A stretch of DNA of 64,000 bases from NCBI RefSeq assembly GCF_019823065.1, contig NZ_CP081966.1:4681501-4745500 (forward strand). Reading direction: 5' to 3'. The notes beneath the pieces are model-generated. The model did no database searches. It saw nothing but the letters and a program-made list of their open reading frames with translations, and was not told where the DNA came from. Within the stretch, counting starts at the first letter, position 1. Each line of letters opens with the position of its first letter. Below, piece after piece: positions 36,265-61,511 of this stretch. This DNA comes from Pseudomonas mosselii (lineage in GTDB: Bacteria > Pseudomonadota > Gammaproteobacteria > Pseudomonadales > Pseudomonadaceae). Position numbers and translations under genes: made by a program.

Positions 36265-36462
36265 ATGCAGCATGTAGTGGCCCAGGAGCGAAAAGCGGAT
36301 AGGCGCCAGTTCAACAACCCCCATCCTGCGGTGGAGGCTGCCGGAGTGGAAGCCGCCGAGAAAGGGCTGCCCGTGTATGCTTGTCCCTACAAGCACCCCG
36401 CCATGTTGGCCTCTTGGCTTAAAGGGTACAATCGAGCCCAGCAGCTCATCCTCAGCCTCTGA
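36265..36462 (+). CDS. Rmf/CrpP-family small protein
   Basis: 65 residues. The segment GVEAAEKGLPVYACPYKHPAMLASWLKGYNRAQ matches the CPY...W-x-x-G pattern of ribosome modulation factor and of the CrpP family found in PAPI-1-like elements. CrpP was reported to modify ciprofloxacin; other work disputes resistance effects, so I name only the family. GAGGAG at 36252-36257 fits the ATG at 36265. Confidence 0.78.
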   Translation: MQHVVAQERKADRRQFNNPHPAVEAAGVEAAEKGLPVYACPYKHPAMLASWLKGYNRAQQLILSL

Positions 36463-36631
36463 CCTCTTGCTCTTACAGCCTCCAGCTTGCGGTGGCCTTC
36501 ACAGCCAACCTGCTGATTTTGTCTTGACACCCCTCCGCCTTCTCCCTAGAATCACCGCCCAATCGCGCCTGAACCTCTGGTGCTGGCTTTGTCCAGTATT
36601 ATGTTTGGGCCTTCTTTTATCTGGAACATGG

Positions 36632-37627
36632 ATGTTGCAGCAGCTAGCCCCTCCTAAGCCATTCAAAAATTATTCCGAACTGGTTGAGCTACTGATTACC
36701 AGAGGCATGCTCGTACCTGACCCCAACCGAGCAGAACGGAAGATTTCACAGATCGGCTATTATCGGCTCAGTGGTTACTGGCAGCCCGCGCGCGACTTTG
36801 ATAGGGACGAGCAACAGAATGTCCTTATCTGCCAAGTAACACGCAAACCGCGTAGAAAAAGCAATTTTCTACCTGACACAACCTTCAATGACGCCGTCGA
36901 TCTTTATCTTTTTGATAAGAAACTTAGACAACTCATGCTTGACGCGATTGAACGGATTGAGATCCAGGTCAGGACTGTAATTGCTCACGAGGTTGGCTAC
37001 CACTCACCAATGGCGTATACGGACTCGCAGTTCATTCGCCCTAAACAGACCGAAGACTGGAATGACCGCAAAACTAACCAAAAACGAAATACTTGGTTAG
37101 AGTGGCAAAAACGCCAAAAAAATCTGTTGGATCGTAGCCAAGAAGACTCCATTGAATGGCATAGACGCGCGCACAAAGCTATTCCGTTCTGGGTAGCTGT
37201 GGAGGCATGGGATTTTGGTACACTATCGAAATACTTCGAAATCCTCAAAGGCAACCATCAAAATCGCATTGCGGCTCGACTAGGTATTAGTGATACCCAC
37301 GTGCTAACTCAGTGGCTACGAGAGATAAATACCTTGCGCAACAGGTGCGCACATCATACTCGTATTTGGAACCAAGTAGCGGCCAACCCGCTCTCCGTTC
37401 TTGACAACCCTTATTTTCAAAACCTGGCGCTTGACCAAAATGCCCGATCTCGAATATTCGGGCTAATCAGCGTCATCTGGCTGCTTGTTCAACGCTTGGG
37501 GCCAAGTTCAAGCTGGATAAAACAGGTCGCAGATCTACTCGACTCTAAGCCCTCCTTGCCTGGTTGCCAATTCTCCTCACTTGGGCTTCCAGAAGCTGGA
37601 TTCCCCAGGAAGCTCTTTGGAATCTGA
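36632..37627 (+). CDS. Abi_2 (AbiD/AbiF-like) abortive infection protein
   Basis: About 331 residues. KPFKNYSELVELLITRGM, then KISQIGYYRLSGYWQPARDF, and later the HEPN-like region LREINTLRNRCAHHTRIWN (R-N-R-C-A-H, an RxxxxH motif) match the Abi_2 family of phage-defence proteins. The base composition is lower in GC than the flanks, as expected of cargo. The start is uncertain: the ATG at 36632 gives the usual N-terminus. It sits between the Rmf-like gene and topA. Confidence 0.85.
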   Translation: MLQQLAPPKPFKNYSELVELLITRGMLVPDPNRAERKISQIGYYRLSGYWQPARDFDRDEQQNVLICQVTRKPRRKSNFLPDTTFNDAVDLYLFDKKLRQLMLDAIERIEIQVRTVIAHEVGYHSPMAYTDSQFIRPKQTEDWNDRKTNQKRNTWLEWQKRQKNLLDRSQEDSIEWHRRAHKAIPFWVAVEAWDFGTLSKYFEILKGNHQNRIAARLGISDTHVLTQWLREINTLRNRCAHHTRIWNQVAANPLSVLDNPYFQNLALDQNARSRIFGLISVIWLLVQRLGPSSSWIKQVADLLDSKPSLPGCQFSSLGLPEAGFPRKLFGI

Positions 37628-51109: not shown

Positions 51110-52054
51110 GTGAGCTTGATTGCAGATGCTGAGTTCGTGGACCTCTATCTTGGCCATGATTTTGCCGATGTGAAGGGGCTGGCAGGTCAGCCCCGCAAGG
51201 CCGCCGCTCCTCCGGAGTGGTTGACCGAGATCCAGGAACTGAGGGCGCGGTGTCTGCATCAGTACGAGACAACACGTGAGCCTGAATTCGCCCTCGTGTT
51301 AGAGGATCGCGTGCTCTTGCGAGTGACGTACAACCTGGACGTCTTCACTAAGCCGTTTTTTGTGCTGAATCGGTCAAGAGCAACCATCATCCCTCTCGAG
51401 GATCTTGGGTTACCGGACCATATTTACGAGTGCCTGCTCGCCGAAGAAACCCGGGGCCTGGTGTACTTCGCTGGTGAGATGGGCACCGGCAAGACCAGCA
51501 GTGCTGCCTCGGCGGTGAAGGCCCGCCTGACATCACGCGGCGGCCTGGGCCTGACTGTAGAAGACCCGCCGGAAACGCTCCTCCAAGGCGAACATGGCTC
51601 TGGCCGCTGCATCCAGTTGCCGGTTTCCCGTATGCAAGGCGGCTATTCAGAAACGCTGATACGCGCTCTTCGAACTCGCGCTGACCTCATCCTGGTCGGT
51701 GAAGTTCGAGACACGGCCACTGCCGCTGAAGTCATCAAAGCATCCATCAATGGCCATCTCATTTTCTCCACTGGGCACGGCGGCAGCATCGGGAGCTCCA
51801 TCCAGCGCCTGGCTGTACTTGCCGAGCCCATCATGCCGAATGCCCTGGAGGTGCTCTCACAGGGGCTGACTGTGGTCATTCACCAAACCCTCCTCCGTCC
51901 AGACCACGGACAGCCGCGACTCACACTCCAAACGCTGTCACTGACCCTGGATGACGCGCCGTCCATCCGCGAGAAGATCCGCAGCGGACATCTTCAGATG
52001 ATCGAGCAAGACATCGTCACCCAATCGAACAGGAGTCTCTGGCATGGCCAGTAA
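51110..52054 (+). CDS. pilT2: PilT2 ATPase (retraction-type)
   Basis: 314 residues, GspE/PilT-like, with Walker A GEMGTGKTSS (~residue 123) and LILVGEVRDTATAAEVI (Walker B region). PAPI-1 names the equivalent gene pilT2. The GTG start at 51110 with GAAGG at 51097 is preferred to a longer frame that overlaps pilS2. Overlaps pilV2 by 11 bp. Confidence 0.88.
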   Translation: MSLIADAEFVDLYLGHDFADVKGLAGQPRKAAAPPEWLTEIQELRARCLHQYETTREPEFALVLEDRVLLRVTYNLDVFTKPFFVLNRSRATIIPLEDLGLPDHIYECLLAEETRGLVYFAGEMGTGKTSSAASAVKARLTSRGGLGLTVEDPPETLLQGEHGSGRCIQLPVSRMQGGYSETLIRALRTRADLILVGEVRDTATAAEVIKASINGHLIFSTGHGGSIGSSIQRLAVLAEPIMPNALEVLSQGLTVVIHQTLLRPDHGQPRLTLQTLSLTLDDAPSIREKIRSGHLQMIEQDIVTQSNRSLWHGQ

Positions 52055-53240
52055 ACGCGGGCAGGCTGGATTTTTTACCATTGATGGCCTGTTCGGCCTG
52101 ATAGTGATGAGCATCATGCTGTCTCTCGCGGGTTGGTGGATGCTCAATTACGGCAACCAGCAGGACTACCGGATCGCCGCGGAACACCAGCGGACTGTCG
52201 CTGACGCTTTTGCCAAGTACCTCAAGGACAACTACTCCGTGGTGCTCAGCAATGCTGGCCCGACTACGCCTGTCCAGGTCACCGTAGACATGATGCAAAA
52301 CACCAAATATCTGCCGGCGGGCTTCAGCTCGACCAATAGCTTCGGCCAGACCATCGTCGGCCTGGCCAGGCGCCTCAACGCTAACCAGCTCGAGGCCATT
52401 GTGGTGACCACCGGTGGCCAGGTCATCCCGGAACTCGGCATTCGGACCATCGCTGAGCATCTTGGCGGGCCGGGCGGATTCATATCGTCACTCAAGCCCG
52501 GAGTCATCCAGGGTGTGCGAGGTGGATGGGAAGTGGCGCTCAGCAACTACGGCATCAACCCTGGGCAGGGACATACCGCGAGCGCGCTCTTCTTGATGGA
52601 CGGCGAGCTGGCCAACGACTACCTCTACCGCAACGCTGTCCCAGGCCACCCTGAATACAACCGGATGAACACCGCGATCGATATGGGTGGCAACGACATC
52701 AACAATGCCCGCGCGGTCACCGCGACGAGCGACATCACCAGTAAGGACGGCTGGTTCAGAAGCCAGAACGACACTGGGTGGGTGAACGAGAAGTGGGGGG
52801 GCGGCATCTACCAAGCTGATGCAGACTGGGTCAGGGTTCTTAACGACAAGGGCCTGTTGACAGGCGGAAAAATCCGCGGCGGGACACTGCAGGCGGACGG
52901 ACGTGTGACAGTTGGGGAGTATCTGGATATCGAGAGCACCGCTGTTGAAGGACAGGCGTGCCCGAAGATCGGCATCCAGTCGAAAAACAACCTGGGCGCG
53001 CCCCTTACCTGCCAGTGCCTCACACCTTCTTGCCAATCCGGGGTGTGGAAGGAAGCCGGGGGAGCTGATCGATGGGGAGGCTCGTTTTGGACAGCAACTC
53101 ATACAAGCGGTGGATGTCCAAATGCCAATCCATACACTGGTTCCTGCAGCTGTCCTGTTGGATATTCGCCAGTACAATCATTTGCGATACAAGTTGGTGG
53201 TTGCAATCCTTGCAGAGCCTTTAACTGCTATCGGCCGTGA
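52044..53240 (+). CDS. pilV2: PilV2 minor pilin/adhesin, with currently expressed shufflon cassette 1
   Basis: 398 residues. The prepilin site QAG|FFTIDGLFGL is followed by a membrane helix. The first ~329 residues are constant; after SCQSG the sequence changes at an sfx site (53031). The C-terminal ~65 residues (cassette 1, 53050-53240) are Cys-rich (GSCSCPVG, GGCNPCRAFNC). In R64 PilV the C-terminus binds recipient LPS and sets mating specificity. Recombination at sfx sites swaps this end for six others to the right. Confidence 0.93.
   Translation: MASKRGQAGFFTIDGLFGLIVMSIMLSLAGWWMLNYGNQQDYRIAAEHQRTVADAFAKYLKDNYSVVLSNAGPTTPVQVTVDMMQNTKYLPAGFSSTNSFGQTIVGLARRLNANQLEAIVVTTGGQVIPELGIRTIAEHLGGPGGFISSLKPGVIQGVRGGWEVALSNYGINPGQGHTASALFLMDGELANDYLYRNAVPGHPEYNRMNTAIDMGGNDINNARAVTATSDITSKDGWFRSQNDTGWVNEKWGGGIYQADADWVRVLNDKGLLTGGKIRGGTLQADGRVTVGEYLDIESTAVEGQACPKIGIQSKNNLGAPLTCQCLTPSCQSGVWKEAGGADRWGGSFWTATHTSGGCPNANPYTGSCSCPVGYSPVQSFAIQVGGCNPCRAFNCYRP
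53031..53049 (+). repeat. sfx site 1
   Basis: TTGCCAATCCGGGGTGTGG, at the end of the pilV2 constant region; points right. Confidence 0.95.
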
Positions 53241-53259
53241 TTGCCAATCCGGTGCGTGG
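53241..53259 (+). repeat. sfx site 2
   Basis: TTGCCAATCCGGTGCGTGG, directly after the stop of cassette 1; points right. Confidence 0.95.
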
Positions 53260-53505
53260 CGGCAGGCTGCAGCAAAATTTGAGCTGACCGCCGAATACAT
53301 TGCCGGCTACCAACAAACAGTCCGCATGATTGCGAGCACTGAAGGATTCTGCTTTCCCACCCTGATCGGCATGGCTTCTTTGAATAACTACGATAGTTAT
53401 TGGGGGAAGATTTACATAGGGGCTGATGGTTTCTGGTATCTATCAACTGCTGATAGCTCATACCCAAGAGGGCAAAGTATGTACGCGCGATGCGTGCGAT
53501 CCTAG
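53242..53505 (+). CDS. Silent PilV2 cassette 2
   Basis: Open frame from the sfx CQSGAW through ...QSMYARCVRS to a TAG. No start codon of its own, so it is expressed only when joined to pilV2. The end (FWYLSTADSS ... ARCVRS) resembles the DUF1566/Lcl-type end in cassette 4. It lies in the double-ended segment 2. Confidence 0.9.
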   Translation, partial: CQSGAWRQAAAKFELTAEYIAGYQQTVRMIASTEGFCFPTLIGMASLNNYDSYWGKIYIGADGFWYLSTADSSYPRGQSMYARCVRS

Positions 53506-53521
53506 TAGCAGCTTCAGGCGT

Positions 53522-53797
53522 CTAGTTACATGCGATCACATAGCTACATGCACCGCCTGGGTTGAATGCACCTTTGTCATAGAAGCCACAGGTTACGATC
53601 CGATTGCTATCAGCGTAAGCGTAGTTACCGCCAGCATAATCGGGTCTCGGGGCAGGGTGAGGGTTTGACGCATCGGAAGCCGACCAAGTACAGCTATCTT
53701 GGGTACTGCCGCTTGGAAGAGGGATTTGCTGGCCGTGGGTGATAAATCCAGTAAGAACCTTTCCACCGCCAGCTGAACGCCACACCCCGGATTGGCA
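53522..53797 (-). CDS. Silent PilV2 cassette 2' (other side of segment 2)
   Basis: Read left from sfx 3: CQSGVWRSAGGGK..., Asn/Pro-rich middle (NPHPAPRPDYAGGN) and a Cys-rich end. It shares segment 2 with cassette 2, tail to tail, so each inversion of that segment offers one or the other. Confidence 0.9.
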   Translation of the reverse strand, partial: CQSGVWRSAGGGKVLTGFITHGQQIPLPSGSTQDSCTWSASDASNPHPAPRPDYAGGNYAYADSNRIVTCGFYDKGAFNPGGACSYVIACN

Positions 53798-53798
53798 A
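53780..53798 (-). repeat. sfx site 3
   Basis: Complement reads TTGCCAATCCGGGGTGTGG, identical to site 1, in opposite orientation to sites 1 and 2; both can invert with it. Confidence 0.95.
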
Positions 53799-53810
53799 GA
53801 TGGTTATGCG

Positions 53811-54053
53811 TTACGTCGAACTGCTTGCCTGGCCTTGTAGTTTTAATAAGTTGTTCAAGTGTTGGTCTAGTGACGAAATTTGGTCGGAATCGGCCAAGCC
53901 TCGAGAAATCTGTCGCAAAGTCTCTAATGCTTTAGCAGACTCTGCAACAGCCTCAGAGTGTTCTTTGGTCGCCAACTGCTCAAGAAGAGCATGCTGTGAG
54001 CTCAAGCTGGAAATAGTGGCCTTGATGAAAACGAGAAAATCCAAACTATTCAT
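53811..54053 (-). CDS. Passenger gene inside shufflon segment 3
   Basis: 80 residues, helical (MNSLDFLVFIKATISSLSS, then AVAESAKALETLRQ). It has its own ATG at 54053, one base after the TGA of cassette 3 (TGAGATG), and an AGGGAG site inside the cassette end, so it is translationally coupled to cassette 3. It is expressed from the pilV2 promoter only when segment 3 is the active one. Function unknown; it could modify, export or protect against that tip. Confidence 0.72.
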   Translation of the reverse strand: MNSLDFLVFIKATISSLSSQHALLEQLATKEHSEAVAESAKALETLRQISRGLADSDQISSLDQHLNNLLKLQGQASSST

Positions 54054-54054
54054 C

Positions 54055-54342
54055 TCACCACTCCCTTATCGATGAGGTTATTGGTAGGTCTTTAACCCCA
54101 ACCGTGTACCCATAGAAATTGTAATGGGTAAGGACCCCTGCATTCGCCACAGCACAGCTGACGCTACTGCCACAGAACACGTATCCGAAACCACCGCATA
54201 CATTGGACCGACACTTGATGGTTCCAGAAAACAGACTACCCGTTACGCTACCGGTGCCGCTGTACCCAGTATTGCCGTTAATGCCGATTTGCCATCCGCC
54301 AAGCTCGCCCGAGCCGGCGGCTGTCCACACACCGGATTGGCA
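54055..54342 (-). CDS. Silent PilV2 cassette 3
   Basis: CQSGVWTAAGSGELGGW... to a TGA at 54055-54057. Gly/Ser-rich with three or four Cys (KCRSNVCGGFGYVFCG). Followed at once by the passenger gene. Confidence 0.9.
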   Translation of the reverse strand, partial: CQSGVWTAAGSGELGGWQIGINGNTGYSGTGSVTGSLFSGTIKCRSNVCGGFGYVFCGSSVSCAVANAGVLTHYNFYGYTVGVKDLPITSSIREW

Positions 54343-54343
54343 A
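54325..54343 (-). repeat. sfx site 4
   Basis: Complement reads TTGCCAATCCGGTGTGTGG; entrance to cassette 3. Confidence 0.95.
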
Positions 54344-54345
54344 AC

Positions 54346-54633
54346 CTATTGGACACAAAAGAATGGAACTGCTGCTCCACCTGAAGCTATATCTAAGGCT
54401 GCGTCACTGAGGCGGAAAGTGAAGGCCGCTGCCGAGCCCCATTCACTAGTCCAGTAATAGACTCCATTATTGAGCCCCATTGATCTCAAAATGTGCATTT
54501 CCGACAGGCTTGCCAAATGCCATTTCTCACCCTTGGAACCGCAAACTTGGTTGGCGGCATACCAGGTGTTTGCTGGACTAACTTCGTGTTTAAGTTTTCT
54601 ATCACCACTGCCAGCCCACACCCCGGATTGGCA
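54346..54633 (-). CDS. Silent PilV2 cassette 4 (DUF1566/Lcl-like)
   Basis: CQSGVWAGSGDRKL..., with the pattern NQVCGSKGEKWHLASLSEM and ...GVYYWTSEWGS ending in PFFCVQ. This C-x3-G-x2-W-x-L-x3-E layout, YWTS and terminal Cys-Val recall the DUF1566/Lcl C-terminal domain of bacterial adhesins. Confidence 0.88.
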   Translation of the reverse strand, partial: CQSGVWAGSGDRKLKHEVSPANTWYAANQVCGSKGEKWHLASLSEMHILRSMGLNNGVYYWTSEWGSAAAFTFRLSDAALDIASGGAAVPFFCVQ

Positions 54634-54634
54634 A
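54616..54634 (-). repeat. sfx site 5
   Basis: Complement reads TTGCCAATCCGGGGTGTGG; entrance to cassette 4. Confidence 0.95.
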
Positions 54635-54639
54635 ACCTG

Positions 54640-54837
54640 TTAAGGCTTGCTGCAAGAGTAAGTTAGGCATGGATTACAGCCACCTATCTGGACACCTCGG
54701 ATCAGGTTTGGAGCCAGTCCCGTCGGGCAGCTATATCCACCGGTAAATCTATTCACGTACTGCCCGGTTATCCCAGTCATAAAGCCAGAACCTACACCAT
54801 CTGCAGAACCGCCCGATTTCCACACCCCGGATTGGCA
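54640..54837 (-). CDS. Silent PilV2 cassette 5
   Basis: CQSGVWKSGGSADGV..., ending GYSCPTGLAPNLIRG then VQIGGCNPCLTYSCSKP. The end is closely related to the active cassette 1 (GGCNPCRAFNCYRP), so these two may recognise similar recipients. Confidence 0.9.
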   Translation of the reverse strand, partial: CQSGVWKSGGSADGVGSGFMTGITGQYVNRFTGGYSCPTGLAPNLIRGVQIGGCNPCLTYSCSKP

Positions 54838-54838
54838 A
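54820..54838 (-). repeat. sfx site 6
   Basis: Complement reads TTGCCAATCCGGGGTGTGG; entrance to cassette 5. The bases just beyond (GATGGTTA) are shared with the flank of site 3. Confidence 0.95.
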
Positions 54839-54843
54839 GATGG

Positions 54844-55047
54844 TTACTTTTGGCAAACGTGATACCAATAGTATGGAGTTGCACCTGCGTAACTGAAACC
54901 TGTGAGGTTTGAGGAAAATCCCAACGGACAACTACATGCACCTGTTTGGGGGTTGGCAATACCACATCCTGATTCGGTCATTGACCCAACTCCTGTATAT
55001 GCTCCCCCAAACCTTGCCGACACTGCTTTCCAAGCACCGGATTGGCA
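54844..55047 (-). CDS. Silent PilV2 cassette 6
   Basis: CQSGAWKAVSARFGG..., then CGIANPQTGACSCPLG as in cassette 1 (NPYTGSCSCPVG) but with a different tip, YYWYHVCQK. It is the cassette farthest from pilV2 and next to rci. Confidence 0.9.
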   Translation of the reverse strand, partial: CQSGAWKAVSARFGGAYTGVGSMTESGCGIANPQTGACSCPLGFSSNLTGFSYAGATPYYWYHVCQK

Positions 55048-55048
55048 A
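55030..55048 (-). repeat. sfx site 7
   Basis: Complement reads TTGCCAATCCGGTGCTTGG; the outermost site, 60 bp from the end of rci. Confidence 0.93.
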
Positions 55049-55107
55049 TAGGATTTCCCCAAGATGCCCAATCCACAAGGCCTGGGCAATCTCAAGACAT
55101 CACCTAA

Positions 55108-56268
55108 TCACCGCAAAAAAGTGTGAGCCCCATCTGAGGGGCAATTCTGGCTCAACGGGTCGAGCATGATTATTTCGCCCTCGTTAACCTGCTCCAGATA
55201 CTGATCAGGAGCTGGAATAGGCTCCTTGTCCCTTAACGACACCATCAGATGACGTAGCAGCGCATCTTCCGCCACTCGCTTTGCCAACTCTGCAGTACCC
55301 CCAGCGCCTTGTACACCATCGAAGTCGAGCACCCGCACGGTGACGCCGCTGGGTGTTTCCGAAACGACAGCAGGATACGGCACCAGGTGATTGATGATCA
55401 CCTGCTGGCCACGGTGCTTGTTCCCCTCAAGCTTTTTCACCAATCGGGACGCTTTCAAGTGGGTGTACCTCTTCAACATCGCCAGGCTCTTGTGACCACT
55501 GATCGCAGCAATTTCCATAATGTCGAGTGTGCCGAGCTCGAAGAGGCGCGAGCAGGCTTCATGCCGGAGGTCGTGGAAATGAAGGTCCTTGATGTCCAGC
55601 CGTTGCAGCATGATGCGCCAGGCCGACTTCAACCCATTAGCGGTATAGCCAAACACCTTGCCCTTCGTCCGTGCCCCGAGCTGGATCAACGCATCACGAG
55701 CTTTGAGGCTCAGGGGCACATCCCTCTTCGATCCGTTCTTGGTATCGGGGAGGTGCGCAATTCGCCGCTGTAGGCTGATGTGCTCCCACTCAAGCTTCAA
55801 CAGTTCCCCCTGGCGCATAGCTGTCTCGATCGCCAGCACAACCAGGACATAGAGGTCTGGTGTGGGATGCGCATGGCAATAACGCATGATCTGGCGCTCC
55901 TCGCGGGCAGTTAGTCGCCGATCTCGGCCAGGTGCTGCTTTCGGTTTGCGTACGTTCGAGACCGGGTTCGACTCGCACACCCCCCACTCGATCCGGCCAA
56001 TGTCGAACACGTTCGACAGCAGCGACATTTCCAGGCGCACCGTAGATGGTGATATGGGTAAACCCGTTTTAGGGTTGGTCTGCAAGAGACGCTCGTCGCG
56101 GAGACTAGCGATATCAGGGCTTCGAAAATCACGCATGTTCTTGTCGGCATACTTCGACTTAAGCAGACTTGAGATACGGTAACTCTCTTGTACAAAGCCT
56201 TTCTTTAGTACGGAGACTTTCTGTCGATAAAGGGTCAGGCCTTCAGCGAGCGTCATGTCCTGGGTCAT
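55108..56268 (-). CDS. rci: Rci-type shufflon-specific tyrosine recombinase
   Basis: 386 residues. Catalytic residues of tyrosine recombinases are in order: Arg in ETAMRQGELL, the HDLRHEACSRL box, His in ISGHKSLAM and Tyr in LKRYTHL. The extended C-terminal ~100 residues resemble the tail that lets R64 Rci bind both sfx arms. Located directly beyond sfx 7 and read toward the shufflon. It overlaps the XRE regulator by 26 bp; the second Met (56256) is also possible. No directionality factor is known for Rci systems. Confidence 0.93.
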   Translation of the reverse strand: MTQDMTLAEGLTLYRQKVSVLKKGFVQESYRISSLLKSKYADKNMRDFRSPDIASLRDERLLQTNPKTGLPISPSTVRLEMSLLSNVFDIGRIEWGVCESNPVSNVRKPKAAPGRDRRLTAREERQIMRYCHAHPTPDLYVLVVLAIETAMRQGELLKLEWEHISLQRRIAHLPDTKNGSKRDVPLSLKARDALIQLGARTKGKVFGYTANGLKSAWRIMLQRLDIKDLHFHDLRHEACSRLFELGTLDIMEIAAISGHKSLAMLKRYTHLKASRLVKKLEGNKHRGQQVIINHLVPYPAVVSETPSGVTVRVLDFDGVQGAGGTAELAKRVAEDALLRHLMVSLRDKEPIPAPDQYLEQVNEGEIIMLDPLSQNCPSDGAHTFLR

Positions 56269-57066: not shown

Positions 57067-57708
57067 CAGTTGACGCCTCGCGAAAAAGCCTACGAGCCTT
57101 GCATCCCGGCCATGGTACAACCCATAATGACATCAGTTTTGGTTCAACCCCGCTGGCTACTGACGGTCATCAGTAGCGCCCAGGTGTTGTGGTTCGCCTC
57201 AACACCAAACCGTAAGCACGCTATAGCTCCGGGAAGGGCGTGCGGATCTGGTTGAAAGCTCTCCCTGTGTCTCCCTGCTCTCTCTAGTCGCGCAGCCGTC
57301 TAACTCGTGATGATCGAGTTCACAGGCACATAGAGTTTCAAGAGGTTCGGTGCTTCTTTGATCCAAGGGCCACATTGGTAATGTGGCCCCTCCTCTTTCC
57401 TTCCCCTTGGGTAGCCTGATGGACTTGTCGAAGGTCCATGAGGCTACCCAATGGGTACTCTCTCCTTTGCCGGTGGCCCGCCGGCGATAAGCCGGGCTCC
57501 TTTTGTGCGCGGATGCGTGCCTCATGTTTGCTGGCCAAAGCCACGAGAATGGCCAGGTGATGAGAGTCGAAACGATCAATGCCCAGGGATCGACGATTCC
57601 GACACAGGTGGCTCCTTCAACTTTTTTTTTCAACCACGGCTGGGTCACCTTTCAAGGGCTGATCCAGCCGGACTTCTCCCTCCATCTCTCCCCCCTTTCC
57701 CCCTCCGC
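57067..57708. other. Non-coding region with two strong hairpins
   Basis: About 640 bp without a convincing gene. GGGCCACATT-ggt-AATGTGGCCC (57367-57389) has a 10-bp perfect stem. The next, 57407-57451, has the outer stem TTGGGTAGCCT / AGGCTACCCAA and inner ATGGAC / GTCCAT around a GTCG-type loop. A T-rich run follows at 57622. Could be an oriT, ssDNA origin or structured RNA. Confidence 0.6.
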
Positions 57709-57764
57709 TTGACACAACCCTTCCCCGCTCCGATTATTAAGCCGTGATCTGCTGACGTCGTCAG
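57709..57764 (+). promoter_or_regulatory. Promoter and palindrome ahead of leader RNA A
   Basis: TTGACA at 57709, 17 bp, GATTAT at 57732; then CTGACGTCGTCAG at 57752-57764. The same layout (TTGACA 44 bp before the same 13-mer) recurs at 58745. Confidence 0.65.
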
Positions 57765-57963
57765 CAACATGCCCCATGCAGCTCGGATCCGTAATGCTGC
57801 AGCACGAAGTCTGTGTGATCCACCAGCCCAAGGTCGTTTAGCTTCTGGTAGCACGACCGGTCGACCTCCGTCGATAGAAGCTCCTTCCGCAAACCCAGCG
57901 GGGAATACATTTCCCCGTTAGGGACAGTGTTTTCTCCGCATTTTTTAACCGCAGGAGAAACAC
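57751..57963 (+). ncRNA. Structured leader RNA, copy A (upstream of 57965 gene)
   Basis: Hairpin I GCTGACGTCGTCAGC (57751). Hairpin II: GGTCGT (57832-57837) pairs with ACGACC (57853-57858). Hairpin III: TCGAC/GTCGA at 57861-57874. IV: GGGGAAT/ATTTCCCC at 57900-57916. Last: GTGTTTTCTCC (57927) pairs with the ribosome site GGAGAAACAC (57954). The arms co-vary with copies B and C. Confidence 0.75.
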
Positions 57964-57964
57964 C

Positions 57965-58315
57965 ATGACCGCAATGTCCGCACCCTCCATCGGCTTCCGT
58001 TTTGGCTACGCGCTCGGCACCCTCACCCGTGAGTTCCTGCGCGCCATGAAACGTCCAGCCCCAGTAGTCCCAGCACATGTTCGGCCTGTTGTACAACTCG
58101 CGAACATAGCACCCACCCGCAGCGACTGGGATGAGCTTTGCCGCATTCCAACCCTCGCACGCCGCGGTGTTGATCTGAACCAGTGGTTCGAAAACAACAC
58201 CAAAGCGGTACCACCGACCAAGCGCCGTACCCGTCAGCGCAAGCCGAGCAAACCCAAAGCATCAGAGCTGCGTATGGGCCCGCTGAACGACCTCATAGCT
58301 CCAGTTGCGATCTAA
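57965..58315 (+). CDS. Conserved ICE hypothetical protein, basic C-terminus
   Basis: 116 residues, no recognised domain. The C-terminal region is rich in Lys/Arg (KRRTRQRKPSKPK), suggesting nucleic acid binding. Translation start ATG 57965 is in the sequestered ribosome-site hairpin of leader A. Confidence 0.7.
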   Translation: MTAMSAPSIGFRFGYALGTLTREFLRAMKRPAPVVPAHVRPVVQLANIAPTRSDWDELCRIPTLARRGVDLNQWFENNTKAVPPTKRRTRQRKPSKPKASELRMGPLNDLIAPVAI

Positions 58316-58325
58316 CTCCCTCCAA

Positions 58326-58364
58326 CCTCACCCAGTGCCAGGCACCCCACCTGGCAAGGTGAGG
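58326..58364 (+). other. Tall intergenic hairpin
   Basis: CCTCACC / GGTGAGG outer arms and TGCCAGG / CCTGGCA inner arms. No T run, so not a standard terminator. A small second hairpin, TGGCG / CGCCA (58368-58387), holds the ribosome site AAAGGA of the next gene in its loop. Confidence 0.75.
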
Positions 58365-58386
58365 GCCTGGCGATCAAAGGAACGCC

Positions 58387-58563
58387 ATGGTTTCAAAAAA
58401 ACGTGCCGCTGTGGCAGACGACCTTCGCAAGATCGGAACGACGGCCGTTGCCGCCGCCCTCGTAGGTATCTTCCTCAGCACTAGCCGTCTCCTGACCGCT
58501 TTCGCCCTCGTGGTAGGTGTTGTAATCTGGATCACAGGCATTTACCTCACCCCGGAGGAATGA
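58387..58563 (+). CDS. Small membrane protein
   Basis: 58 residues (MVSKKRAAVADDLRK..., then two short hydrophobic stretches AAALVGIFLS and LTAFALVVGVVIWITGIYL). AAAGGA 5 nt upstream. It is too short for most automatic calls; codon use matches the neighbours. Function unknown. Confidence 0.65.
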   Translation: MVSKKRAAVADDLRKIGTTAVAAALVGIFLSTSRLLTAFALVVGVVIWITGIYLTPEE

Positions 58564-58564
58564 C

Positions 58565-58690
58565 ATGAGCCAAACCACATTCGGCATCCTCATGTTCACC
58601 GCCCTGCTCGTCATCTGCGTCGGCATGGCAGTTTGGGCCGATTGGCCTAATATCAAACGCCGGTGCCAGAAGATTCTTCGAGCACATTGA
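58565..58690 (+). CDS. Very small membrane protein
   Basis: 41 residues, one TM segment (TFGILMFTALLVICVGMAVW) and a basic tail (IKRRCQKILRAH). GGAGG at 58555-58559 is well placed, and the gene starts 1 bp after the previous stop. Confidence 0.6.
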   Translation: MSQTTFGILMFTALLVICVGMAVWADWPNIKRRCQKILRAH

Positions 58691-58708
58691 TCATCGATTT
58701 TCCCTACT

Positions 58709-58736
58709 TAACCCTCCACCTGGAGGGTTTTTTTCT
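58709..58736 (+). terminator. Rho-independent terminator
   Basis: ACCCTCC-acct-GGAGGGT followed by seven T. It ends the transcript of the two small membrane genes. Confidence 0.9.
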
Positions 58737-58744
58737 TTCAGGGC

Positions 58745-58801
58745 TTGACAATGTGTTTCTCCGTTTCCATCCTTGTGACCGTGAGCTGCTGACGTCGTCA
58801 G
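58745..58801 (+). promoter_or_regulatory. Promoter and palindrome ahead of leader RNA B
   Basis: TTGACA at 58745-58750 with a weak -10 (CATCCT region) and CTGACGTCGTCAG at 58789-58801. Spacing equals that at 57709. Confidence 0.6.
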
Positions 58802-59013
58802 TAACCCAAGCCCGAGCAGTCATGATCTGAAAGACTGCTACACCCACTGCGGTGTTGATCTCCCCAAAATCGCCAAGCTTCCGGAAGCGCGATTGATCAA
58901 TCGAGAGATTGATGGAAGCCCACCCAACTTGCTACATCCCAACCCACGCGGGGAATACTTTCCCCCATGGGCGAAGTGTTTCTCCGCTTTCGCTATTGAA
59001 ACTGGAGAATCAC
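58789..59013 (+). ncRNA. Structured leader RNA, copy B (upstream of the DUF3577 gene)
   Basis: Hairpin II: AATCGC (58868) pairs with GCGATT (58889-58894). Hairpin III: ATCAATC (58896) with GATTGAT (58907). IV: GCGGGGAATACTTTCCCCC around 58948. Last: GTGTTTCTCC (58976) with GGAGAATCAC (59004-59013). Compared with copy A, both arms of II and III have changed together. Confidence 0.78.
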
Positions 59014-59014
59014 C

Positions 59015-59587
59015 ATGAGCAACCAATCCAACGAAGCCAAATTCTTCGACCTGCACACCACTGGCATCGGCTACCTCAACCGTATCCGTGAAGTAAGCCC
59101 CCGCAAGGGCAAGCCCTTCACCTGTGTCACCGTTGCAGCTTTGCACGGCGCGACTGATAAAGCCGAGTATTCCTACATCGACTGCAACGTTGTCGGTGCT
59201 GAGGCAGAATCGCTGGTTAAACGCTGCCAGCAGGCCGTTGAAGCCAAAAAGAAGGTGCTCGTCTCCTTCCGAATCGGCGACATCTGGGCTGACGCTTTCA
59301 CCTATGATAAAGGCGACAAGAAGGGCCAGGCCGGCGCAAGCCTCAAAGGCCGTCTGCTCTTCATCGGCTGGATCAAAGTTGACGGCAAGCTGGTTTACGA
59401 AGCGAAGCCGAAAAATGCCACCCCGCCCACTGACAATCAGGGACAACCTGGTGTTGATCAAACGTTGAATCAGGAACAACCTGAGCAACCCGTGAATCAG
59501 GGACAGCCAGTCGCCGACCAATTCGGTGAGCAACTCGACCCTGTCCTCGGTAATGATCTTCCCAAGGAAGCCAACCAGGCTGCATAA
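59015..59587 (+). CDS. STY4534 family ICE replication protein (DUF3577)
   Basis: 190 residues. The first ~125 (FFDLHTTGIGYLNRIREVSPRKGKPFTCV...) form the DUF3577 domain, an OB-like fold; the rest is a Gln/Pro-rich tail (GQPGVDQTLNQEQPEQPVNQ, a repeat of NQxQP). Common in PFGI-1-class elements. Ribosome site sequestered by leader B. Confidence 0.88.
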   Translation: MSNQSNEAKFFDLHTTGIGYLNRIREVSPRKGKPFTCVTVAALHGATDKAEYSYIDCNVVGAEAESLVKRCQQAVEAKKKVLVSFRIGDIWADAFTYDKGDKKGQAGASLKGRLLFIGWIKVDGKLVYEAKPKNATPPTDNQGQPGVDQTLNQEQPEQPVNQGQPVADQFGEQLDPVLGNDLPKEANQAA

Positions 59588-59640
59588 CCCCTATCAAGGC
59601 GCTGATTTCAGCGCCTTCATATTCTGCCAAGGAGGCAGTC

Positions 59641-59799
59641 ATGAAAATCCTGTTCGCGTTGAACCTTCTAATCCTGGTCGCCGCTGTAATCCTCGGCGAC
59701 ATTGTTTTCGGTGCCTGCGCTTTCATTGGGCTGAGCGGTTTCGCGATTAACGTGCTCAACCGCAAAGCCAGCACAGTCCCGACTGCGCTCCCCCACTGA
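59641..59799 (+). CDS. Small membrane protein
   Basis: 52 residues with two hydrophobic segments (LFALNLLILVAAVILGDIV; GACAFIGLSGFAINVL). AAGGAGG upstream is part of the hairpin CTGCC-aagga-GGCAG, so the site is looped. Upstream there is also GGCGCTGA-ttt-CAGCGCC, which may end the previous message. Confidence 0.65.
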   Translation: MKILFALNLLILVAAVILGDIVFGACAFIGLSGFAINVLNRKASTVPTALPH

Positions 59800-59875
59800 T
59801 CACTAACCTGATTCCTACCCAATAGGGGACGACGATCCCCTTCGGGAGGCGTTTTTCCTCACAAAGGACTTCGCC

Positions 59876-60301
59876 ATGCCCTACTGCATCACTGTCGCTG
59901 GAGATATTCAGCAGTGCTTCCCTGACTTCGCTACCGCGCGCTCAGATATTCAGGAGCTGCGTAACCAGGGTCAGAAACCTAGGCTGTACTACTCGACCTC
60001 ATTCGCGCATCTGGGCTGTGAGATCGATGATAACGGGGTGCGAATCCCAGACTACACGAACATGCAGTGGTGCGATTACGCCAAGCTGCTTCCTCACTTC
60101 GCCTCATCCTGGTCAATCACGGATGATGAACTGTCAAATGACAGATATCGTCTTGTTGATGTCTATGCGCAACTCAGCGGCCGTGAATACCATCTAGCTG
60201 ACATGGCCTATGCCCGAGGCGAGATAACTCCCAAGGATCTTCGGGTTAATACATGCCTTATCAGGGTCATACAGGGTCTTATGGATCCGAATGATCTGTA
60301 G
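59876..60301 (+). CDS. Conserved ICE hypothetical protein
   Basis: 141 residues, no domain recognised. The leader has GGGGacgacgatCCCC and GGCGtttttCCT...AGGacttCGCC, which encloses the ribosome site AAAGGA. Function unknown. Confidence 0.7.
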   Translation: MPYCITVAGDIQQCFPDFATARSDIQELRNQGQKPRLYYSTSFAHLGCEIDDNGVRIPDYTNMQWCDYAKLLPHFASSWSITDDELSNDRYRLVDVYAQLSGREYHLADMAYARGEITPKDLRVNTCLIRVIQGLMDPNDL

Positions 60302-60366
60302 CATTTCACTTAACCGTATCGGGAACATCACCCGATCTGGCTGATGATCCTCAATGGAGAGACATC

Positions 60367-60444
60367 ATGCCTCTGCTGAACTTCGAGCGAAATTTCGAAC
60401 TCCTCTACGTACCAATCGATGCGACGTATGCCATCGTGCTGTAA
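60367..60444 (+). CDS. Possible 25-residue peptide gene
   Basis: MPLLNFERNFELLYVPIDATYAIVL then TAA. Preceded by the hairpin TCGGGaacatcaCCCGA and GGAGA; same layout as the next gene (60533). It may be a true micro-gene or a decayed copy of the 5' end of a gene. Confidence 0.35.
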   Translation: MPLLNFERNFELLYVPIDATYAIVL

Positions 60445-60532
60445 CAACCAGACATCCTTCGGCTGCGCTCTTATAAACCTTATCGGGTACATCACCCGAG
60501 CGGGTTGGTGACCCCCTCATCGGAGAATCACC

Positions 60533-60883
60533 ATGTCTGAAGCCACCCAAGTCTTCAATGGCGTCATGTTCATCACCAATCCCTTCGAGAAACGAGTTGC
60601 CGGGGCCTTCATCCGCGTAGACGTGCTTGAGCGGCGGTTCGCGGACTCAATCAAAGCTAGCTCGAACCTCGCCCTGGATCGCTGTGGCCAACACTTCGAA
60701 CTGTACGAGATGAGCCTGCTCACTACGCTGCGCGATCAGTATGCAGCTCTCACCTTTCCTCACGACCAGTTGTTCAAACGTGAGGCAGAACGGCAAGGCT
60801 TCCAGCTCGATGATGAGCACTACCGCGCTGTACAGGAAGCTAGTTCCAACCTCTGGGAAGAGATCTACGAAGACATGATCTGA
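60533..60883 (+). CDS. Conserved ICE hypothetical protein
   Basis: 116 residues, helical C-terminal half, no recognised domain. Its leader has TCGGGTacatcACCCGA (~60486) and GGTGA...CTC-atcg-GAG...TCACC, which pairs the ribosome site GGAG. Function unknown. Confidence 0.68.
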   Translation: MSEATQVFNGVMFITNPFEKRVAGAFIRVDVLERRFADSIKASSNLALDRCGQHFELYEMSLLTTLRDQYAALTFPHDQLFKREAERQGFQLDDEHYRAVQEASSNLWEEIYEDMI

Positions 60884-61004
60884 CCCACCCTGTATCACCA
60901 GTCCTCCACCCCGAAGGGTATCCCTTCGGGGGGACTTTCAAAGCAGACACCTGGCAACTGTGAGGCCTCAGCCTACAGTCCGGGAAACGAATTCCGTATT
61001 GGTT

Positions 61005-61188
61005 CACTGTCGTTGACAGTGCCTCCCGGAGCCAGGGTTTAAGGCTCCAGCGCGTTGCGCCAACCCACCCAAGATCGCCGAGCACTCGGCAGCGCGATCG
61101 CATCACCCAGTGATGGAGTGCCTTCTACATTACCTACCTGCGGGGATCTCATCCTCGCGGACGAGGCCTCGCTTTATTTGGAGACCTC
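61005..61188 (+). ncRNA. Structured leader RNA, copy C (upstream of 61191 gene)
   Basis: Hairpin I CACTGTC-gtt-GACAGTG (61005-61021). II: GATCGC (61073) with GCGATC (61094-61099). III: CATCAC-cca-GTGATG (61101-61115). Last: GAGGCCTC (61163) with GGAGACCTC (61180-61188), which covers the ribosome site. Same order as A and B, different bases. Confidence 0.72.
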
Positions 61189-61190
61189 AT

Positions 61191-61511
61191 ATGTCGTTTT
61201 CCCCCGCCTCATCCGAGGCATACCTCACCCTTCCTGTAGTCTTGGACAACCCGGCTTGGATGCGGGCGGTCTATCTCGAAAACCCCATGCGGGTGGCCGA
61301 GATGAGCCAACGCCTCGCCACTGTCGTCCAGGCGGCGTGGCAAGAGCTCAAGCAGCAGCCTCAGGCCAGTGCTCTGTCCTTCGGTGTGTACACGAAGCGC
61401 CACACCGGCCGCGACCGTGACTGGGTCGCCCTCATGTTGCAAATCGTGACCCCCGAGGACGAGCCATCCTACATCCAGATCCAGCTGCAGCACGCTGCAG
61501 ACCCCGCCTGA
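61191..61511 (+). CDS. Conserved ICE hypothetical protein
   Basis: 106 residues beginning MSFSPASSEAYLTLP. The ATG at 61191 with GGAGA just upstream is preferred over an in-frame start 81 bp earlier, which lies in the leader. No domain recognised. Confidence 0.68.
   Translation: MSFSPASSEAYLTLPVVLDNPAWMRAVYLENPMRVAEMSQRLATVVQAAWQELKQQPQASALSFGVYTKRHTGRDRDWVALMLQIVTPEDEPSYIQIQLQHAADPA

Follow-up and report, generated by a model that had tools for sequence, protein, structure and literature searches.

radC RNA leaders in a pKLC102-type element of Pseudomonas mosselii and a hairpin over their Shine-Dalgarno sequences

Why should the same succession of RNA hairpins precede three neighbouring genes of one bacterial mobile element, and what could it do there? 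The question is raised by a stretch of Pseudomonas mosselii DNA (assembly GCF_019823065.1, contig NZ_CP081966.1, positions 4,681,501-4,745,500 of the forward strand), whose 64,000 nucleotides (nt) are called the window below. An earlier, sequence-only reading had described three copies of a structured leader RNA, here A, B and C, and could assign them to no family that it knew. Scanned against Rfam 15, the window as a whole gave only three matches above the cut-off, all of them to RF01754, the radC RNA (gathering score 40 bits), and at these very places. Each match spans the full model (1-149 of 149), and each is followed on the same strand by a gene, with 83, 95 and 69 nt to the ATG at 57965, 59015 and 61191, respectively (Table 1). 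The three copies are new members of a known, functionally unexplained RNA family; the claim of novelty, for which that reading had itself named an Rfam match as the refuting outcome, therefore falls, and a novel family is rejected.

The radC motif is one of 104 candidates published by Weinberg et al. in 2010 and is known from Proteobacteria (PMC2864571). It is entered in a table of that paper as 'RNA Y, cis-reg y, switch ?', which is the single place in the main text where "radC" appears. No study of what radC RNA does turned up in a literature search whose reach left out most subscription papers. Another motif described in the same work, STAXI (RF01728), resembles radC RNA in having pseudoknots near DNA-handling genes (PMC2864571), and matched neither in the window nor in 12 other loci.

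The RNA fold and its two flanks

An alignment of 57 radC copies, no two of them more than about 88% alike, picked from 118 fetched copies (110 unique), supports a fold of seven helices with 40 pairs: the palindrome P1, P2, P3, PK1, Pa, P4 and Pb. PK1 is formed by the loop of P2 and the strand after P3, and Pb by the loop of Pa and the strand after P4; Pa is the hairpin II described earlier, which Pb crosses. The result is a compact multi-pseudoknot fold with near-invariant positions. Of 2238 cells 93.1% are paired (85.6-98.8% for the single helices, with the three window copies included), and both sides vary in 36 of the 40 pairs, while control structures slid along the alignment pair in 26.5-43.3% and none of 500 shuffles reaches any of five measures. 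P1 is paired in 98.8% of cells with both-side changes in all six pairs, and the palindrome of copy C (ACTGTCGTTGACAGT, 61006-61020) carries a paired change. The two pseudoknot helices were tested on 121 distinct rows aligned by R1, our own covariance model, which contains neither PK1 nor Pb and has copy A of the window in its alignment: PK1 is paired in 97.5% and Pb in 92.1%, with both-side changes in nine of ten pairs. G-U cells (153) far exceed A-C cells (30), and the sense strand is therefore the paired one. The hairpin arms named by the sequence-only reading are all found in the three copies, and its proposal that the RNA fold is under selection is strongly supported now that further copies have been added.

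The leaders share with RF01754 their proteobacterial origin, their position upstream of genes and full-length matches over the cut-off, but the Rfam structure that cmscan prints shows none of PK1, Pa and Pb, and the model ends before the helices P5 and P6 treated below. Rivas (2020) already lists radC among families with covarying pairs that are missing from the Rfam and ZWD structures (PMC7657543), and the pseudoknots may already have been drawn in that work; we accordingly claim no priority for them. Shortened forms of the RNA occur as well. A mini radC RNA (L019:737-828) keeps P1, Pa, Pb and P4 without P2 and P3, and has an open reading frame (ORF) and, as judged by eye, a Shine-Dalgarno (SD) hairpin, which suggests that the module of P2, P3 and PK1 is dispensable. 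Half elements consisting of Pa, Pb and P4 lie on the same strand a few hundred nt upstream of a full copy in L015, L052, L056, L058, L060, L063, L070, L072, L075, L079, L082, L084, L086, L088, L091, L092 and L095.

On the 5' side, copies A and B do share a unit of TTGACA and palindrome, as had been noticed before (57709 with 57751, and 58745 with 58788); no TTGACA was found within 100 nt upstream of copy C. At 15-45 nt before the start of the RNA model, TTGAC is seen in 71 of the 112 unique copies, where shuffles yield 2.8, and 68 of 72 occurrences fall 24-29 nt from that start. Given this fixed distance, a -10 box would overlap the first bases of the model and transcription would start just before P1, so that the palindrome should lie at the 5' end of the transcript. 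TTGAC is present in most copies of the type found in the plasmid pKLC102, and is absent within 75 nt of the four copies of LB400. These four and nine copies in the genome of P. mosselii itself, the latter of the type of the integrative and conjugative element (ICE) ICEclc, have other upstream DNA and the same RNA. As the upstream DNA differs between ICE types and the RNA does not, it is the RNA, and not the promoter, that is the shared thing. Behind the TTGACA of copy B, at 58753-58762, the letters of the 5' arm of its own helix P6 (GTGTTTCTCC) are repeated.

Past the end of the Rfam model most leaders have, as judged by eye, a helix P5 (CCC..GGGGAA/TTCCCC..GGG) and then P6, the 3' arm of which is the SD sequence. 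A last hairpin pairing the ribosome site, as proposed earlier, is present in A, B and C. Scored one by one, the P6 helices of A and C do not exceed chance, with 10% and 7% of shuffles as good, respectively; that of B does (0%, scored via a letter-identical copy in G045). Because the P6 region of the MAFFT alignment (A3) is too ragged for column counts, helices were scored leader by leader. As a set, the best SD helices of 60 distinct leaders are beyond chance (mean score 19.25, shuffled 14.22), and in 29 of the 60 at most 5% of shuffles match them. The arms of P6 covary, for example as GGTGTCTCC/GGAGACACC, CAGGCCTCT/GGAGGTCTG and GGTCTC/GAGACC.

Folding points in the same direction. In 67 leaders with a start codon 30-135 nt downstream, the SD is paired with a probability of 0.857 (above 0.8 in 43 of 67), which drops to 0.767 if the upstream part alone is shuffled (Wilcoxon p 4e-9) and compares with 0.646 in a clean control of 39 annotated pKLC102 genes, none of them radC-led (above 0.8 in 7/39; p 1e-8). 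A subset of 43 leaders thinned for likeness gives 0.851 (p 5e-7 against the control), and the three radC-led genes of pKLC102 have 0.80, 1.0 and 0.75. A first control, built from 154 mechanical ORFs of the window and of seven loci, in which spurious ORFs and radC-led genes were still included, had a mean of 0.629 (p 1e-13). When whole leaders are folded, the SD is still paired (mean 0.87, 60 leaders).

Table 1. Coordinates of the radC leaders, their parts and adjacent features in the window.
Feature	Position	Strand	Remarks
radC RNA copy A, leader of 116-aa gene at 57965	57733..57881	+	RF01754 73.5 bits; R1 110.5 bits
radC RNA copy B, leader of DUF3577/STY4534	58770..58919	+	RF01754 77.3 bits; R1 113 bits
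radC RNA copy C, leader of 106-aa gene at 61191	60991..61121	+	RF01754 65.2 bits; R1 85 bits
Copy A, promoter-like site	57709..57737	+	TTGACA, 17 nt, GATTAT; 1 found, 2.1 in shuffles, weak alone
TTGACA ahead of copy B	58745..58750	+	scan gave no -10 partner
Copy A, P1 palindrome, putative 5'-terminal hairpin	57751..57765	+	GCTGACGTCGTCAGC
Copy A, pseudoknot region (Pa, P4, Pb)	57832..57881	+	
Copy A, Pa	57832-57837 / 57853-57858	+	GGTCGT/ACGACC; covariation
Copy A, Pb, with P4 between	57841-57846 / 57876-57881	+	covariation
Copy B, Pa	58868-58873 / 58889-58894	+	AATCGC/GCGATT
Copy C, Pa	61073-61078 / 61094-61099	+	GATCGC/GCGATC
Copy A, P5 and P6	57894..57963	+	P5 CCCAGCGGGGAA/TTCCCCGTTAGGG
Copy A, P6	57927-57937 / 57954-57963	+	GTGTTTTCTCC/GGAGAAACAC
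Copy B, P6	58976..59013 (58976-58985 / 59004-59013)	+	GTGTTTCTCC/GGAGAATCAC
Copy C, P6	61163..61188 (61163-61170 / 61181-61188)	+	GAGGCCTC/GAGACCTC; one mismatch
116-aa gene behind copy A	57965..58315	+	no Pfam match; pKLC102 counterpart annotated hypothetical
DUF3577/STY4534 family ICE replication protein	59015..59587	+	PF12101 2.6e-56; NF040584
106-aa gene behind copy C	61191..61511	+	no Pfam match
Stand-alone small RNA candidate, ends approximate	57130..57395	+	CATAAT 57123-57128; terminator-like hairpin 57367-57389

Host elements, led genes and a small RNA candidate

From 21.6 kb onwards the window encodes ParA, DnaB, DUF2857, a topoisomerase and a type IVB pilus operon with a shufflon and PilM. 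In pKLC102 (NC_019202) the same order is found, with pilM, a small RNA (sRNA) region, radC RNA, two hypothetical genes, radC RNA, STY4534 and a third radC RNA. Judged by this gene order, the element of the window is a pKLC102-type ICE. Its DUF2857 gene directly follows a gene placed where pKLC102 has a ParB-family gene, and DUF2857 is a domain of BisC of ICEclc (PMC7423338). The shufflon (52044-56268) comprises a PilV-type gene (Shufflon_N) and a minus-strand tyrosine recombinase, and the minus-strand ORF pieces between them look, by eye, like alternative PilV tails. An Abi_2 gene of the abortive-infection type also lies inside the element (36377-37627).

The genome of P. mosselii holds 12 radC copies over the cut-off in three clusters, and radC RNA is present in 103 of 199 sampled Pseudomonas genomes. 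In a phylum-wide sample with stricter filters it was found in 6 of 398, namely this genome, four of the same genus and one of the same family. The sequence-only reading had suggested that a covariance model be built and other ICEs be searched: R1 finds radC RNA in 80 of 80 chosen loci, from Stenotrophomonas, Bordetella, Achromobacter, Burkholderia, Pseudomonas and others, with 270 matches all on the strand of the radC-led gene (+), but these loci were selected via a protein whose gene has a radC leader in the P. mosselii genome and are uninformative on frequency. The locus of strain LB400 (L190), which we take to carry ICEclc, has four radC RNAs within 20 kb.

What the leaders precede is varied. 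Among the first genes behind 53 distinct leaders (8 doubtful ones of 61 were excluded), DUF3577 is the commonest with 18, followed by RadC with 5 and single cases of DUF3275, DUF3085 and others. All 44 genomes with DUF3577 have radC RNA (Fisher p 9e-16), and among the matches listed a radC copy lies no more than 443 nt upstream of at least 49 of 53 DUF3577 genes, the other four being in three genomes that have matches beyond those listed. DUF3577 is predicted to adopt an SSB/PriB-like OB fold; sequence relatives in the PDB were not found below an E-value of 0.2. In ICEclc-type loci such as L148 and L169 one protein contains two tandem DUF3577 domains. In L053 and L094 the next long ORF lies more than 500 nt downstream of the radC RNA and is followed by a recombinase-like ORF (ORF labels by eye), and in L053 a strong GCGCCCGTCTCTTT/AAAGAGACGGGCGC hairpin comes after the radC RNA.

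Upstream of copy A lies a stand-alone sRNA candidate that matches no Rfam family. The conserved noncoding block to which it belongs occurs in 25 of 398 Pseudomonas genomes, in three by fewer than 40 bases, and in 8 of 72,556 plasmid records. RNAalifold predicts 57 pairs from 18 homologs, 11 of them with changes on both sides; so do columns 245/257 and 248/253 of the terminator hairpin change, and folding sequence by sequence gives a covarying P2-like hairpin. The terminator tail CTCCTCTTTC is T-poor in the window, and those of its relatives are mostly T-richer. The segment CTCCCTGTGTCTCCCTG (57261-57277) is identical in the 18 aligned homologs and differs in the most diverged relative (L125), which stands outside the alignment. 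CATAAT is present in 11 of 20 distinct homologs, and the promoter scan called no promoter at the candidate in the window. A half model covering Pa, Pb and P4 (R2) gives a weak fourth match inside it (57213-57259, E 0.005), but nothing at the homologous place of pKLC102 at E up to 1; the case for homology with radC RNA is weak. Since PAPI-1 of strain PA14 is reported to express 10 sRNAs (PMC3460626), the candidate may already have been detected there. The idea that its tail pairs with ribosome sites was tried and rejected as a claim about targets: the DUF2857 (BisC-like) gene ranks first of 28 in the window, with energies from -7.6 to -20.9 in 18 relatives, of which the four most distant have uncertain start codons, but it ranks 11th of 53 in pKLC102, where the radC-led genes rank 24, 28 and 34, and 59% of 300 shuffled tails pair as strongly.

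Possible roles of the leader

The combination of a conserved upstream domain and a covarying SD hairpin can be explained in several ways. We consider it probable that radC RNA is a cis-acting leader that gates the translation of ICE genes. Transcription would begin immediately ahead of the P1 palindrome, P6 would keep the ribosome site closed by default, and the upstream double-pseudoknot domain might bind a factor that opens or locks P6. Genes of the ICE whose transcription is already on would in this manner receive a second gate at translation. The coupling between domain and P6 could run through bulged pairing or tertiary contacts, be protein-borne or be absent, and if it is absent P6 would be a plain low-output ribosome site. 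Several findings speak against such a gate. More than half of what separates their SD pairing from that of other genes is due to base composition, as the shuffled value given above demonstrates, and nine of the 60 leaders score under their own shuffled mean, five of which (L028, L029, L036, L046 and L001) precede genes that read as RadC-type. A start was called for 98 copies and lies outside 30-135 nt in 31 of them, none was called for 13 of 111 unique copies, and in one class of copies the next long ORF is more than 500 nt away. An ungapped helix search found no region of the radC domain that pairs with the anti-SD arm above shuffles (14.83, shuffled 15.51); an anti-anti-SD inside the domain is thus not supported, and, as this search showed no domain region competing for that arm, no ordinary switch is visible. 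Finally, the promoter reporters made for ICEclc carried their own ribosome site (PMC9286271) and are therefore no test of translation.

Among the alternatives, a metabolite riboswitch, with the double pseudoknot as aptamer and P6 as expression platform, is the least improbable, and we still regard it as unlikely. The compact fold with its near-invariant positions, the modular occurrence close to the start codons of unrelated genes (DUF3577 in 18/53, RadC in 5/53) and the entry 'switch ?' of the 2010 table (PMC2864571) would fit a riboswitch; however, the search just mentioned found no alternative pairing between domain and P6, and downstream families such as DUF3577/ICE replication and RadC suggest no common metabolite. 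Autogenous control, by which the OB-fold protein DUF3577 would bind radC RNA and repress its own and sister operons so that translation tracks free single-stranded DNA (ssDNA) of the ICE, seems to us rather improbable. The gp32 protein of phage T4 regulates itself on a pseudoknot leader, and in autogenous leaders of that type an unstructured ribosome site is coated by the protein. The radC leaders resemble the gene 32 leader in their 5' pseudoknots (here PK1 and Pb) and in the predicted OB-fold protein that is often encoded next. They differ from it in holding the SD in the P6 hairpin, and also in that 35 of the 53 first genes are not DUF3577 and 59 of the 103 radC genomes are without it, a count that speaks against DUF3577 as sole partner. 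A wider version, in which radC leaders form a translational regulon of ICEs that senses an SSB/PriB-like protein (DUF3577 or an equivalent), ICE proteins being made only once ICE ssDNA soaks up the factor and the sRNA, whose 5' part resembles radC RNA without P3, being a decoy or an ancestral relative, is a speculation to which we give slightly less credence still.

We rate as low as autogenous control the chance that radC RNA is an element of stability or processing, the 5'-terminal domain of which protects or cuts the mRNA while P6 is secondary. Here the position of P1 at the putative 5' end would make sense, and upstream of three ICEclc ORFs RNA reads rise without promoter activity, for which processing is one possibility named by the authors (PMC9286271); these regions are, however, not mapped to radC copies with certainty, and the covarying SD hairpin would be left unexplained. 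Least credible of all is an element acting at the DNA level, with P1 as a palindromic operator, for instance of the BisDC system, and the rest incidental. The near-perfect palindrome does adjoin a promoter, and eight of nine bimodal ICEclc promoters share a 27-bp motif (PMC9286271), but P2, PK1, P3, Pa, Pb and P4 covary as well, and the upstream DNA varies by ICE type while the RNA is constant. The transfer-competence regulon of ICEclc described in that paper has points of contact with our findings, in the radC RNAs of the LB400 locus and in the gene with the BisC domain DUF2857 in the window element; it differs in that the paper is on promoters, with a main text that nowhere uses 'leader', 'untranslated', 'hairpin' or 'secondary structure'.

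Our analysis places radC RNA, an orphan since 2010, as a repeated leader of pKLC102- and ICEclc-type operons. The sRNA candidate and the OB fold predicted for DUF3577 provide two leads for partners, and the parts worth following are the added SD hairpin and the sRNA candidate that falls into no known class. With two pseudoknots and a separate covarying hairpin over the SD, 'function unknown' becomes a testable question of the timing of ICE genes.

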